Source of the DNA: Massilia sp. Root335
GTDB taxonomy: Bacteria > Pseudomonadota > Gammaproteobacteria > Burkholderiales > Burkholderiaceae_D
Direction of reading: 5' to 3'
Assembly (NCBI RefSeq): GCF_001425685.1
Contig: NZ_LMCY01000033.1
Location: forward strand, 12,339 to 76,338
Length of the DNA: 64,000 nucleotides
Both the position numbers and the translations under genes were made by a program. The first letter of the stretch is position 1. Each line of letters begins with the position of its first letter. The notes beneath the pieces are model-generated. The model was not told where the DNA came from. It searched no databases and saw nothing but the letters and a program-made list of their open reading frames with translations. Below are positions 58,333 to 63,703 of this stretch, one piece after another.

Positions 58333-60204
58333 ATGGACGAGCTGCTGCGCTACTACGAGGAAGAGCTGGGGTTGTTCGGCCAGTTCGCGCGCGAATTCCG
58401 CGCCCGCTATCCCAAGCCGGCCAGCGACCTGCACGTGACCGGCGACACCTGGGACGATCCCGGCGTCGCGCGCCTCATCCAGTCCGTCGCGTTGCTGTCC
58501 GCGCGGATCAACAAGCGCCTCGACGACGATTATCCCAAGTTCACCGAAGCGCTGCTGGACAGCCTGTATCCCCATTACCTGCGGCCGCTGCCGTCGTATT
58601 CCGTCGTCCAGGTGGGCTACCGCGCGCCCGCCGAGGTGCCGGAAAAGCCGTTCCTGCTCGCGCGCGGCACGATGCTGCGCACCAGCGCCGGGACGGATGC
58701 GCCATGCCTGTTCCGCACCGTCTACGACGTGCTGCTGGCGCCGCTCACCGTGGCGCGGCTCGCGTTCGTGCCGCTGCTCGAGGTCCCAAGCGCACTGCGC
58801 GCGCCGCGCAAGGTAGCGAGCAACAGCGCCTGCGGCATCAGCCTCACGATCGAGACGGCGCGCGGCGGCTTTCCGGAGCGCCTGCCGCCGGCGCTGCGCC
58901 TGTTCGCCGACGGCGACGCGTCGACCCGCGCCGCGCTGATCGACGCGCTGTTCCTGCGCGCCGCCTCCGCCTGGCTGCAGCCGGAAGGCGACAAGGGCTG
59001 GCTGCCGCTCGCGCGCGTGCCGCTGCGGCTGGCCGGCCTCGCGGACGAGGATGCGATGCTGCCGTATCCCGCGCGCTCGCACCCGGCGCCGCGCCTGCTG
59101 ACCGAGTATTTCTGTTATCCGGAAAAATTCAATTTCATCGACGTCGACCTGGCGGCGCTGGGCGACCTGCTGCCGCCGCGCTGCCGCCGGTTCACGCTGC
59201 ATGTCGCGCTGTCCGGCATCGCCCCCGATTCCGACGGCGCGCGCCTGCTGGCCGGGCTGGACGCGCGCAACCTGCTGCCCGGATGCACGCCCGTCATCAA
59301 TCTGTTTTCCAAGCCCGGGGCGCCGCTGCAGCTCGCCTACACGAGCGCCGACTACCCGCTGCTGGCCGACGGCGCCCACGCGGCCGCGTTCGAGATCCAC
59401 AGCGTGGACGCGGTGCGCCTCGTGCGCGAAGGCACGGGCACCGTGACCCCGTTCGCGCCCCTGTATGCGCCGGGCGACGCCGCGCCGGGCGACGCTTCGT
59501 CCGGGGGCGCGGGCAGGGCGGACGCGGCGCACTACTGGATCGCGCGGCGCGACTACGCGACGGCCGCCGTCAGTCCCGGCCACGAGATGCGCATCGCCCT
59601 CGTCGACGGCGATTTCCACCCGCTCGACGCGGCCGGCGCGACGCTCTCCACCGAGCTGACGTGCAGCAACCGCGACGTGCCGTCGCGCCTGCCGTATGGC
59701 CAGCCGCAGGGCGACCTGCGCAGCGACGAGCTGTCGGCCCTGGCCCCCATCCGCATGCTGCGCAAGCCCACGCCCAGCTGGCGCTTCGCCGGCACGCGCG
59801 GTACGCACTGGCGCCTGATCGCCCACCTGGCCATGAACCATGCCGGCCTGACGATGGCCGGCCTGGCCGACTTTCAAAAGATGCTCGTGCTGTACGACCT
59901 GCCGCGCTCGCCCGTGGCGCAGCGCCAGATTGCCGGCATCGTCGGGCTGGAACACGGCACGGTGCGCGCGTGGGTCGGCGCGGCGCCCGTCGCCAGCCTC
60001 ACGCCCGGCATCGGCATCCGTCTCACTGTCGACGAGGACGCGTTCGCCGGCACCGGCCTGTATCCGTTCGTGCAGGTGCTCGACCATTATTTTGCCCTGA
60101 ACGGCCAGCTCAACTGCTTCACCCGGCTGCAGGTCGTGTCGCACCAGACCGGCCGCGAAATCCTCGCCTGCGCTCCGCGGACCAGCGGCGGCGGATGGAC
60201 CTGA
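58333..60204 (+). CDS. tssF: type VI secretion baseplate protein TssF
   Basis: Protein of 623 residues, full length for TssF (VasA/ImpG). The N-terminal signature [20 protein letters not shown] and then [40 protein letters not shown] (as [10 protein letters not shown]) are typical. TssF dimers and TssG form the baseplate wedge with TssK and TssE. GGGGAG precedes ATG 58333. No tssE, tssB/C or other T6SS structural gene flanks it; the pair stands alone between a GST and a copper ATPase gene. Confidence 0.93.
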
Positions 60205-61217
60205 TCGCGCGCCTGCTGGCCGAGCCCCAGCGCTTCGACTTCGTGCAGGCCGTGCGCCTGCTGCTGCTGGCGCTGGACGAGCGCGGCATCCCCCCGCGCC
60301 GCGCGCTCGCGCGCCACCTGCGCTTCGCCAACAGCGTCGCGCTCTCGTTCCCGCCCAGCCAACTGGAGGGGGCGGCGCGGGAGCCGGACGGCTACCGCCT
60401 GACGCCCAGCTTCATGGGCCTCCTGGGCGCGCACGGGGCGCTGCCGCTGCACGTGACGGAGCGCCTGCTCGGGCTGCCGACGGACGCGCCGGATGCGCAA
60501 GCCGCGCGCGCCTTCCTCGACATGTTCAGCACGCGCATGCTCGCGCTGTGGTACGGCGCGTGGCAGAAATACCGGGTCGAGCACCTCGTGACCGGCCCGC
60601 GCGACGGGTTTCTCCCCTTGCTGCTGGCGCTGGCGGGCGTGCCGGGCGGCGCGGCGTTCGCGCGGGACGGCGTCCCGGACACCGCACTGGCCGCGTTCGC
60701 GGGCCTGCTGCGCCGGCGGCCCGTGTCGGCGGTCGTGCTGGGCCGGGTGTTGTCCAGCCACTTCGGCGTGGCCGTGCGCGTGCAGGAGGGCGTCGGCCAT
60801 TGGGATCGGCTGGCTGTGTCCGAACAGAGCGCCCTCGGCACAAAATTCGAAAACCGCGCGCTGCTCGGCCGGCGCGCGCTGCTGGGCGCGCGCAGCTGGC
60901 GCCCCGACCTGCGCGTGCGCGTGCGCATCGGCCCCCTCGACCGTACCCGCTACGACCACTTCCTGCCCGGCGCGGCGGGCGCCCGCGCGCTGCGCACGTT
61001 GCTGGGCCTGTTCGCCGTCCCGACGCTCGCCTACGACATCGTGCTCGTGCTGCGCCAGGCCGACCTGGGACCGGTGCAGCTCGAGGCGGCGGGCCGCCGG
61101 CTCGGCCTGGACAGCTATCTGCTCAGCGCCCCCGCCGCGGCCGACCGCGCCGACCTTTGCTACGAACTCCGTCCGCTCGACCCGCTGCCGCCCCTGTCCG
61201 CCACAAAATCCCCTTGA
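60195..61217 (+). CDS. tssG: type VI secretion baseplate protein TssG
   Basis: Protein of 340 residues that matches TssG (VasB/ImpH): [20 protein letters not shown] at the N-terminus, then [14 protein letters not shown], the [20 protein letters not shown] block and SLG-type [16 protein letters not shown] near the end. It starts 10 bases before the tssF stop, as usual, so the two are translated together. The stop codon (61215-61217) overlaps the -35 box of the copA promoter. No further T6SS gene follows in this window. Confidence 0.92.
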
Positions 61218-61244
61218 CCTTCCCATCGTGGGAAGGCATATCCT
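61214..61244 (+). promoter_or_regulatory. CueR (MerR-family)-type promoter and operator of copA
   Basis: TTGACC (-35, 61214-61219) and TATCCT (-10, 61239-61244) are 19 bases apart, the overlong spacer that MerR-family activators need. The spacer holds a perfect dyad, CCTTCCCA TCG TGGGAAGG (61218-61236), the usual CueR-type copper operator. Transcription would start about 20 bases ahead of the copA ATG. No cueR gene is seen in the window. Confidence 0.88.
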
Positions 61245-61270
61245 GTGTCGGTCATCACGGGAGAAACAGT

Positions 61271-63703
61271 ATGGGGATCGACATCGATGTCAGCGGAATG
61301 ACCTGCGCGTCGTGCGTGGCGCGCGTGGAGAAGGCGATCAAGGCCGTGCCGGGCGTGCGCGACGCGAGCGTCAATCTGGCGACGGAACGCGCGGCCGTGC
61401 AGGGCGACGGGCTGGACCTCGCGGCCATCGTGGCCGCCGTCGAGCGGGCCGGCTACGCGGCGCGGCCGGCGGGCAGCGCCAAGGCCGAGGCGCCCGCGGC
61501 GCCGGGACTGCCCACCTGGTGGCCCGTCGCCGTGGCCGCGCTGCTCAGCGTTCCGCTCATCGCCCCGATGCTGCTGGCGCCGTTCGGCATCGACTGGATG
61601 CTGCCCGGCTGGCTGCAACTCCTGCTGGCGACGCCCGTCCAGTTCTGGCTCGGCGCGCGCTTTTACCGGGCCGGCTGGAAGGCCGTGCGCGCTGGCGCCG
61701 GCAATATGGACCTGCTCGTCGCGATCGGCACGTCGGCCGCGTACTTCCCGTCGTTGTACCAGTTGCTGTACGCGGGCGGCGGGCACCTGTATTTCGAATC
61801 CGCCGCCGTCGTCGTCACGCTCGTCCTGCTCGGCAAATGGCTGGAAGGCCGCGCGCGGCACCAGACCGTCGCCGCGATCCGCGCGCTGGAGGCGTTGCGG
61901 CCCGCCGAGGCCATCGTCCGCCGCGCCGGCCGCGACGTGACGATTCCGCTCGACGACCTGCGCGCCGGCGACCTGATGGTCGTGCGGCCGGGCGAACGCG
62001 TGCCGGCCGACGGCCGCGTCATGGAAGGCGCCAGCCATCTCGACGAATCCCTGCTGACGGGCGAGAGCCTGCCAGTGGCGAAGGGCACGGGCGACCGCGT
62101 CACGGGCGGCGCCGTCAACGGCGAGGGCCTGCTGCTGGTCGAGGCGACCGCGGTCGGCGCGGACAGCATGCTGGCCCGGATCATCTGCATGGTCGAGGAC
62201 GCGCAGGCCGCCAAGGCCCCGATCCAGCGGCTCGTCGACAAGGTCAGCGCCGTGTTCGTGCCCGTCGTGCTGCTGATCTCCCTCGTCACCCTGCTGGCCT
62301 GGGGCCTGGCGACCGGGGACTGGCAGCACGCGCTGCTGAACGCGGTGGCCGTGCAGGTGATCGCCTGTCCGTGCGCGCTGGGTCTCGCCACGCCGACCGG
62401 GATCATGGTCGGCACGGGCGCGGCCGCGCGCCACGGCATCCTGATCAAGGACGCGGAAGCGCTGGAGACGGCGCACGCGCTCGAGATGGTCGTGTTCGAC
62501 AAGACGGGTACGCTGACGGAAGGCCGTCCGCGCGTGGTCGCGCTGGAAGGCGGCGACACGCGCCGGCTGCTGGCATTGGCCGCGGCCGTCCAGCAGGGCA
62601 GTGCGCATCCGCTGGCGCGCGCCGTGACGGATCTGGCCGCGGCGCGCGCGGTGGCCGCGCCGCCCGCGACGGAATCCGCCGCGCTGCCGGGCCGCGGCGT
62701 GCGCGCCCGCGTGGACGGCGACACGGTTTATCTCGGCAACCGCCGCATGCTGGACGAGATCGGCGCCGGCGCTGTCTTGCCGGGCGCGCTGGCCGCCGCG
62801 GCCGCGCGCCACGAGGCCGACGGCCGCACCGTGTCGTGGCTGGCCCGCGACGACGGTGGTGCCATCGTCGTGGAAGGCGTGCTCGCATTCGGCGACCGCC
62901 TCAAGCCGACGAGCCAGGCGGCCATCGCCCGCCTGCGCGCCCTCGGCGTGGACAGCATGATGCTGAGCGGCGACAACGAAGGCAGCGCGCGCGCCGTCGC
63001 GCAGGCGCTCGGGCTCACGCGCTGGGTCGCGCACGTGCAGCCGCAGGACAAGGCCGACGTCGTGCGCGGCCTGATGCGCGAAGGGCACAAGGTGGGCATG
63101 GTGGGCGACGGCATCAACGACGCCCCCGCGCTGGCGGCGGCCGACGTCGGCATCGCCATGGCCGGCGGCACCGACGTCGCGCTGCACACGGCCGCGATCA
63201 CCCTGATGCGCGGCGACCCGCTGCTCGTGGCGGACGCCATCGACATCTCGGACCGCACGTGGCGCAAGATCCGCCAGAACCTGATGTGGGCCTTCGTCTA
63301 CAACGTCGTCGGCATTCCCGTCGCGGCGCTGGGCCTGCTGAACCCCGTGCTGGCCGGGGCGGCGATGGCGCTGAGTTCCGTCAGCGTCGTCACCAATGCG
63401 CTGCTGCTGCGGCGCTGGCGGCCGGCGCCGCGTCCGGCCATTGACGATACGATTTCAACCAACGGGGCGGACCTGCCCCAAGTACAAGGAGCACACACGA
63501 TGTATGAATTGACTGTCGAAGACATGAGCTGCGGCCACTGCGTGGGCCGCGTCACCAAGTCGGTGCAGGCGATCGACAAGGACGCGAAGGTCGAGGTCGA
63601 CCTGCCGACCAGGAAAGTCAAGGTCGAGAGCACCGCCGACCTGGACGCGATCGCGCAGGCGATCGATGCGGCCGGGTATCCGGTGACGGCCCGCGGCGCC
63701 TGA
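61271..63703 (+). CDS. copA: copper-exporting P1B-type ATPase, frame continuing into a C-terminal HMA domain
   Basis: Inner-membrane Cu(I) exporter of 810 residues as read. The N-terminal metal-binding domain has GMTCASC. Eight membrane helices, the TGES actuator loop, [10 protein letters not shown] in helix 6, DKTGTLT, the HP motif (SAHPLARAV), [12 protein letters not shown], and the helix 7-8 copper motifs ([16 protein letters not shown]) are intact. After residue 728 (RRWRPAPRP) the frame shows no stop and passes through a 15-residue linker into a second HMA domain with DMSCGHC. Usual CopA proteins end before this. Residues 744-810 may also be made separately from an internal start (63500). 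GGGAGA precedes the ATG; a CueR-type promoter drives it. Confidence 0.92.
63500..63703 (+). CDS. copZ: copZ-like copper chaperone, nested in frame at the end of copA
   Basis: A 67-codon gene in the same frame as copA. ATG 63500 has a strong AAGGAG 8 bases upstream (within AAGGAGCACACACG), which would be unexpected inside a coding region. The product is one HMA domain, [20 protein letters not shown] with the CxxC copper site, ending in [12 protein letters not shown]. As a free protein it would be a CopZ-type Cu(I) carrier to CopA; as read-through it is the C-terminal domain of CopA. Both may be produced. An alternative is that copA lost its stop through a small indel, or a sequence error. Confidence 0.7.

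Follow-up and report, generated by a model that had tools for sequence, protein, structure and literature searches.

The locus analysed here raises the question of whether the reading frame of a copper pump gives rise to one protein or to two. In the window—the whole stretch of 64,000 nucleotides of Massilia DNA that was analysed, which stretch comes from contig 33 of a 7.1-Mb draft genome—the copA gene continues without a stop into a second, copZ-like HMA domain, and a Shine–Dalgarno sequence (SD) and an ATG stand at the head of that domain.

The fused frame and its parts

The features are the following, with coordinates given as positions in the window:

61214-61244, + strand: promoter, presumably of the CueR/MerR type; TTGACC, a 19-nt spacer and TATCCT, with CCTTCCCATCGTGGGAAGG at 61218-61236
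61271-63703, + strand: fused copA-copZ frame, 810 amino acids plus stop (63701-63703); SD GGAG at 61260-61263
61283-61456, + strand: HMA1, the N-terminal metal-binding domain, with MTCASC (PF00403, residues 5-62)
63413-63499, + strand: linker, in frame, 29 amino acids after NALLLR, of hypervariable length between species
63486-63491, + strand: internal SD, AAGGAG, with an 8-nt spacer to the ATG at 63500
63500-63703, + strand: nested copZ, consisting of the internal ATG and HMA2 (MSCGHC), 67 amino acids plus stop (PF00403)

From the ATG at 61271 the frame is open throughout, the first stop being the one at 63701-63703, and PF00403 matches two stretches of the fused protein, of which HMA2 scores 59.1 bits against a cut-off of 24.8 and has as its first residue Met 744, encoded by the ATG at 63500. 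The first-pass annotation had described a copA frame running stop-free into an HMA domain with an SD and a start of its own, which description the sequence and the domain model bear out; the linker, there put at about 15 residues, is in frame as described but comprises 29 residues after NALLLR.

The Cu P-type ATPase part of the product ends near residue 714. The fused CopA scores 576.5 bits with TIGR01511 (cut-off 397), a model for Cu P-type ATPases; and the motifs C366-P-C368, D410KTGT, and G612DGINDAPAL, of which the CPC membrane motif and the others checked are taken by us as marks of a Cu(I)-exporting P1B ATPase (CopA), are invariant in an alignment of 20 rows. Judged by family model and motifs, the copA product is a Cu(I)-exporting P1B ATPase; its solved relatives include 3j09 and 3rfu.

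HMA2, for its part, has the MxCxxC motif (MSCGHC) and, with 67 amino acids, the size of about 70 that characterize a CopZ-like HMA domain, and among its solved relatives are the copper chaperones 1cpz, 1k0v, and 2qif. The 67-residue product stays below the NCBIfam CopZ cut-offs, the best match being NF047957 with 54.4 bits against 85, so that the name CopZ is taken here from domain and layout only. By its MxCxHC motif, HMA2 would belong with the CopZ2-like subgroup described in PMC7558416.

In the structure prediction, residues 743-809 form the succession strand-helix-strand-strand-helix-strand with pLDDT values of 84-91. The full-length model, made from 20 rows, is poor (mean pLDDT 67.3, pTM 0.38), with values below 50 across residues 622-740, membrane part included, and of about 30 in the linker; since the neighboring membrane part shares these low values, they give no sign of linker disorder. 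We accordingly confine the structural reading to HMA2, the whole model saying nothing firm on the linker.

The CopA of Archaeoglobus fulgidus is a P1B ATPase with a C-terminal HMA domain, and the Massilia product resembles it in being a Cu(I) pump whose C-terminus carries such a domain; the PDB entry 3fry, listed as probable copper-exporting P-type ATPase A, is presumably that very domain of the A. fulgidus protein, which is not known to have an internal start.

Directly upstream of copA lie two genes for T6SS baseplate proteins, tssF (58393-60204; PF05947, 482 bits) and then tssG (60201-61217; PF06996, 261 bits), the end of the latter being overlapped by the copA promoter. The only CueR of the genome above the model cut-off lies on contig 2 (G000:C2:20150-20524, L263), away from copA; at several loci of other genera a CueR-like frame, judged by eye, lies 3' of copA.

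Conservation of the fusion across Massilia

Searches with the whole protein and with HMA2 alone located the fused layout in 57 of 62 Massilia genomes, the ones without it being G018, G023, G046, G047, and G055, of which G023 and G055 are 87% and 83% complete. The genus loci examined numbered 68, with a fused HMA2 in 57 and none in 11 (L059-L068 and L070); the rows being related, counts over the 57 loci are not independent. The linker takes 26 lengths, from 16 to 74 amino acids, and is in frame in 57 of 57 loci with differences of whole codons, which regularity is partly one of construction, the loci having been chosen for a single open frame that contains both the ATPase motif and HMA2. An independent check was provided by the search with HMA2 alone, whose match fell, in each of these 57 genomes, inside a long frame of copA (in G037, inside a frame of 236 residues), the remaining small-ORF matches being separate genes, as judged from their positions, without any copA cut by a stop.

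These relatives decide on the alternative that had initially been regarded as the main one, namely, a recent loss of the copA stop in this strain or, to the same effect, an error of sequencing or assembly. A one-base shift would indeed yield a short copA ending; but a layout shared by 57 of 62 species genomes whose linkers differ by whole codons is incompatible with a slip in sequencing and with a fresh loss of the stop, and we assign that explanation practically no weight. A comparison of CopA ends among relatives had also been proposed, with a stop ahead of copZ in all of them as the finding that would speak against the fusion; in none of the 62 genus genomes did we find a copA stopping just before its copZ.

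A different objection would be that only the free CopZ matters and that the fusion by read-through is a tolerated by-product; and in fact no part of the junction is better conserved than the SD and ATG. Fitch parsimony on a maximum-likelihood tree built from 56 CopA cores (L071, from G037, having been left out for too short a core) nevertheless gives at least 39 changes of linker length, all of them frame-keeping, where random changes of length would disrupt the frame in about two thirds of cases if the fused protein were not under selection; and no genus genome was found in which this copA stops just before its copZ. We consider this objection very unlikely to hold, and the whole-codon changes together with the missing stops suggest to us that selection acts on the fused protein.

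In the strain itself PF00403 matches in three places: HMA1, HMA2, and a MerP-like protein with a signal peptide (by eye). According to tallies made by hand from the search rows, a separate small HMA ORF (frame below 200 amino acids, E <= 1e-5) is present in 22 of the 62 genus genomes and accompanies the fused gene in 20 of the 57 genomes that possess the latter; in the other 37, including that of the window, no separate small copZ was found at E <= 1e-5.

As for particular loci, the fused copA frame of G037 (L071) is broken inside the ATPase part, with the HMA2 start still there. Among the CopA homologues devoid of HMA2, the ten with ends printed stop 6-10 residues past NALLLRRW or NALLLTRW, and several of the genomes with such homologues (L059-L068 and L070) also have a separate small copZ.

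The putative internal start site as DNA

An in-frame ATG stands at the head of HMA2 in all 57 Massilia loci, and GGAG precedes it by 8 nt in 56 of them, the exception (L022) having a pair of adjoining ATGs, the first 5 nt and the second 8 nt past GGAG. Codon -4 is accordingly GGA in 56 of 57 loci—L022 agrees if counted from its second ATG—while among the glycine codons of the CopA bodies GGA accounts for 121 of 4123 (2.9%). The residue that follows the SD glycine is E in 33 loci, A in 17, G in 4, and V in 3, with a codon whose first base is always G, which shared base is the last letter of GGAG. A rare codon that is kept, next to a residue that varies over a fixed base, points to selection on the nucleotides rather than on the protein.

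The comparison with other methionines leads in the same direction. GGAG occurs within positions -16 to -5 of 57/57 HMA2 starts versus 14/901 other Met codons of those CopA bodies; under a less strict criterion, a duplex energy of -6.35 kcal/mol or better is attained by 57/57 starts versus 86/901 other Met codons. The GC3, which is 0.91-0.94 in the CopA body, drops to 0.39-0.45 between codons -8 and +4, and G makes up 7% of codons -8 to -5. The mean unpaired probability from -20 to +10 is 0.59, versus 0.34 at 228 Met codons and 0.33 at 342 random codons of the body, and the mean 120-nt MFE is -32 kcal/mol at the HMA2 starts versus about -59 in the body. Shuffled versions of the window's own 120-nt region are no more structured than the region itself (z -0.20), as would be expected if base composition does the work; low structure relative to shuffles is therefore unsupported for this locus, and the contrast holds against regions of the CopA body. 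With respect to the first codons after the ATG, the TAT at +1 is by itself no start signal, for the rest of HMA2 also prefers TAT (50 TAT vs 7 TAC), while the GAA at +2 does count as one, the rest of HMA2 having 18 GAA vs 79 GAG. The conserved SD, the ATG, the relaxed codons, and the open structure are, on this comparative evidence, the features of a translation start set inside a reading frame; and a conserved in-frame start with an SD at good spacing is what a pair of proteins made by in-frame internal initiation would be expected to have.

Could these features persist if the fused protein were the only product of importance? The SD and ATG might be the leader relic of a once-separate copZ—a natural origin, in view of the separate copZ genes of other genera, which have an SD at their own start—or else an SD-like pause site aiding the folding of a membrane protein. 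A relic, however, would decay, whereas the combination of GGAG, 8 nt, and ATG has been kept in 56 of 57 loci, and by means of the rare GGA, while most of the linker varies; and a pause site has no need of an ATG at fixed spacing, nor of relaxed codons downstream. We regard both versions as unlikely.

Free CopZ might alternatively arise by proteolysis of the linker or from an internal promoter instead of by internal initiation, an explanation to which we give only a very slight chance, since most of the linker is unconserved, whereas the SD and ATG are conserved. As to a promoter, 44 of 56 genus loci have the strict palindrome CTTCC-N(5-9)-GGAAG ahead of copA, but none of the 57 linkers contains it, nor do the 116,811 bases of CopA bodies, and no sigma-70-like site was found on the + strand of the window linker. 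Both tests are weak: of 10 separate copZ genes in other genera just 2 are preceded by the palindrome, whose absence from the linkers therefore says little, and even the promoter of copA goes undetected in the sigma-70 scan.

Two probable products from one gene, in Massilia and beyond

The reading that we very much favor on these comparative grounds is that of two selected products, CopA with a tethered chaperone and a free CopZ made by internal initiation; the suggestion of the first-pass annotation that one frame yields two products has thus gained support from the 57 of 62 genomes and their conserved start. The CueR-type promoter would give one transcript for the whole of copA-copZ. Ribosomes entering at 61271 would then produce CopA ending in the linker and the CopZ-like HMA domain, while other 30S subunits would bind at the internal AAGGAG and the ATG at 63500 to produce a free CopZ of 67 residues; the latter would deliver Cu(I) to the pump, and the tethered copy of HMA2 would serve as each pump's own chaperone domain. 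The frame and its domains, and the conservation of that frame and of the start site within it, are observed; that ribosomes use the ATG at 63500, in what ratio the two products are made, and that the tasks of the tethered form differ from those of the free one we infer from the sequences.

If so, the genomes seemingly lacking a CopZ (37 of the 57 Massilia genomes with the fusion) would have one after all, and an annotation of one protein per frame would overlook the free chaperone. Separate changes to the SD, to the ATG, and to the linker are possible, so that the respective value of a tethered and of a free chaperone would be directly testable.

A pump and a chaperone from one gene would not be without precedent. 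In 2017 Meydan et al. reportedly described programmed frameshifting in Escherichia coli copA, with CopA(Z) as its product. That frameshifting frees the N-terminal HMA chaperone, one gene thereby providing both pump and chaperone, according to PMC7558416 and PMC6747150. With respect to those same accounts, the comparison with E. coli that had been made at the outset holds for the outcome—one copper-pump gene giving a pump and, in Massilia presumably, a free HMA chaperone—but not for the mechanism: in E. coli a frameshift releases the first N-terminal domain as the chaperone, whereas the extra HMA domain of Massilia is C-terminal, lies in the same frame, and would be released by an internal start. 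The Massilia gene would accordingly represent a second route to that outcome, mechanistically unlike the E. coli frameshift, and the fact that it is kept across the genus and recurs elsewhere would point to an advantage in having pump and chaperone encoded together by a single gene.

In-frame internal starts that produce shorter proteoforms are likewise known from E. coli and Salmonella (arcB, clpB, and infB; PMC11005335); as in those genes, two proteins would here come from one frame with two starts, no copper pump being among the genes named in that passage and the word copA being absent from the main text of that paper. PMC6769254, on beta-proteobacterial copper proteins, contains neither "Massilia" nor "fusion". 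Internal in-frame starts and one-gene pump-chaperone pairs are thus known, and within the open-licence papers searched we found no report of a nested copA-copZ layout.

In the family, 392 genomes from 44 genera were searched, and among the matches listed the stop-free ones covering both halves were all from Massilia except that of G180. Of 20 regions read outside the genus, eight had both genes apart, L190 had them fused, and the remaining 11 did not have both by the patterns used. In all eight of the former (L185, L187, L189, L191, L192, L196, L199, and L201) the separate copZ is convergent with copA. Ranked by the bit score of an RpoB fragment, g40 comes closest to Massilia among the genera sampled (about 89-93% identity), and L199, alone among those eight loci, belongs to it. 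Since copZ is separate and convergent at these eight loci of other genera, the nested order is probably derived in Massilia, the nearest genus being represented by that one locus. The locus L190, from the small genome G180 of the same family, carries a distant CopA of 45% identity with a C-terminal HMA domain and AAAGGA before its ATG.

In Bacillota, a profile of the fused gene (A2, made from four fused genes, one of which came from G400, a Ruminiclostridium MAG assigned to Bacillota going by its name) matched 54 of 348 genomes at E <= 1e-30, 41 of them without an internal stop by hand count. In 26 of the 30 loci fetched, an SD core precedes the ATG of HMA2 in 22/27 starts versus 27/256 control Met codons, in a test that took the best-scoring ATG within 13 codons against every Met of the control and so favors the starts; L231 counts as two rows, and L213, L219, L223, and L228 went unscored by the pattern, L219 and L228 containing stops and L213 and L223 being fused with weaker SDs. 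The Bacillota SD is encoded by amino acids that differ from gene to gene (e.g., KGG, KE, EE, and GG), which variety points to conservation at the level of DNA. Named cases with nested starts are Aedoeadaptatus ivorii (L168) and a Clostridia MAG (L113); exceptions among the fused genes are L218, without a start, L205, without an SD core, L103, with a weak SD, and L167, with TTG. Among the matches listed from 349 Pseudomonadota genomes (E <= 1e-22), one stop-free fusion lies outside Massilia, that of L235 (G935), from another class, with AAGGAGG before its ATG.

We therefore consider it somewhat probable that the in-frame nesting of copZ at the end of copA, with a ribosome-binding site kept, is recurrent and has had more than one origin (in Massilia, in lineages of Bacillota, and in another class of Pseudomonadota), with the tethered and the free chaperone both under selection; the independence of those origins is judged from their distance and from the separate copZ of the relatives of Massilia. 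The layout resembles that of tandem copA-copZ operons such as those of Staphylococcus plasmids and of L104, L106, and L180, where copZ follows directly after copA with an SD and an ATG of its own that we read in those three loci; there a stop ends copA, whereas in Massilia the frame is continuous. Such tandem unfused pairs, observed in L154 and L178 as well, are a possible ancestor of the fusions.
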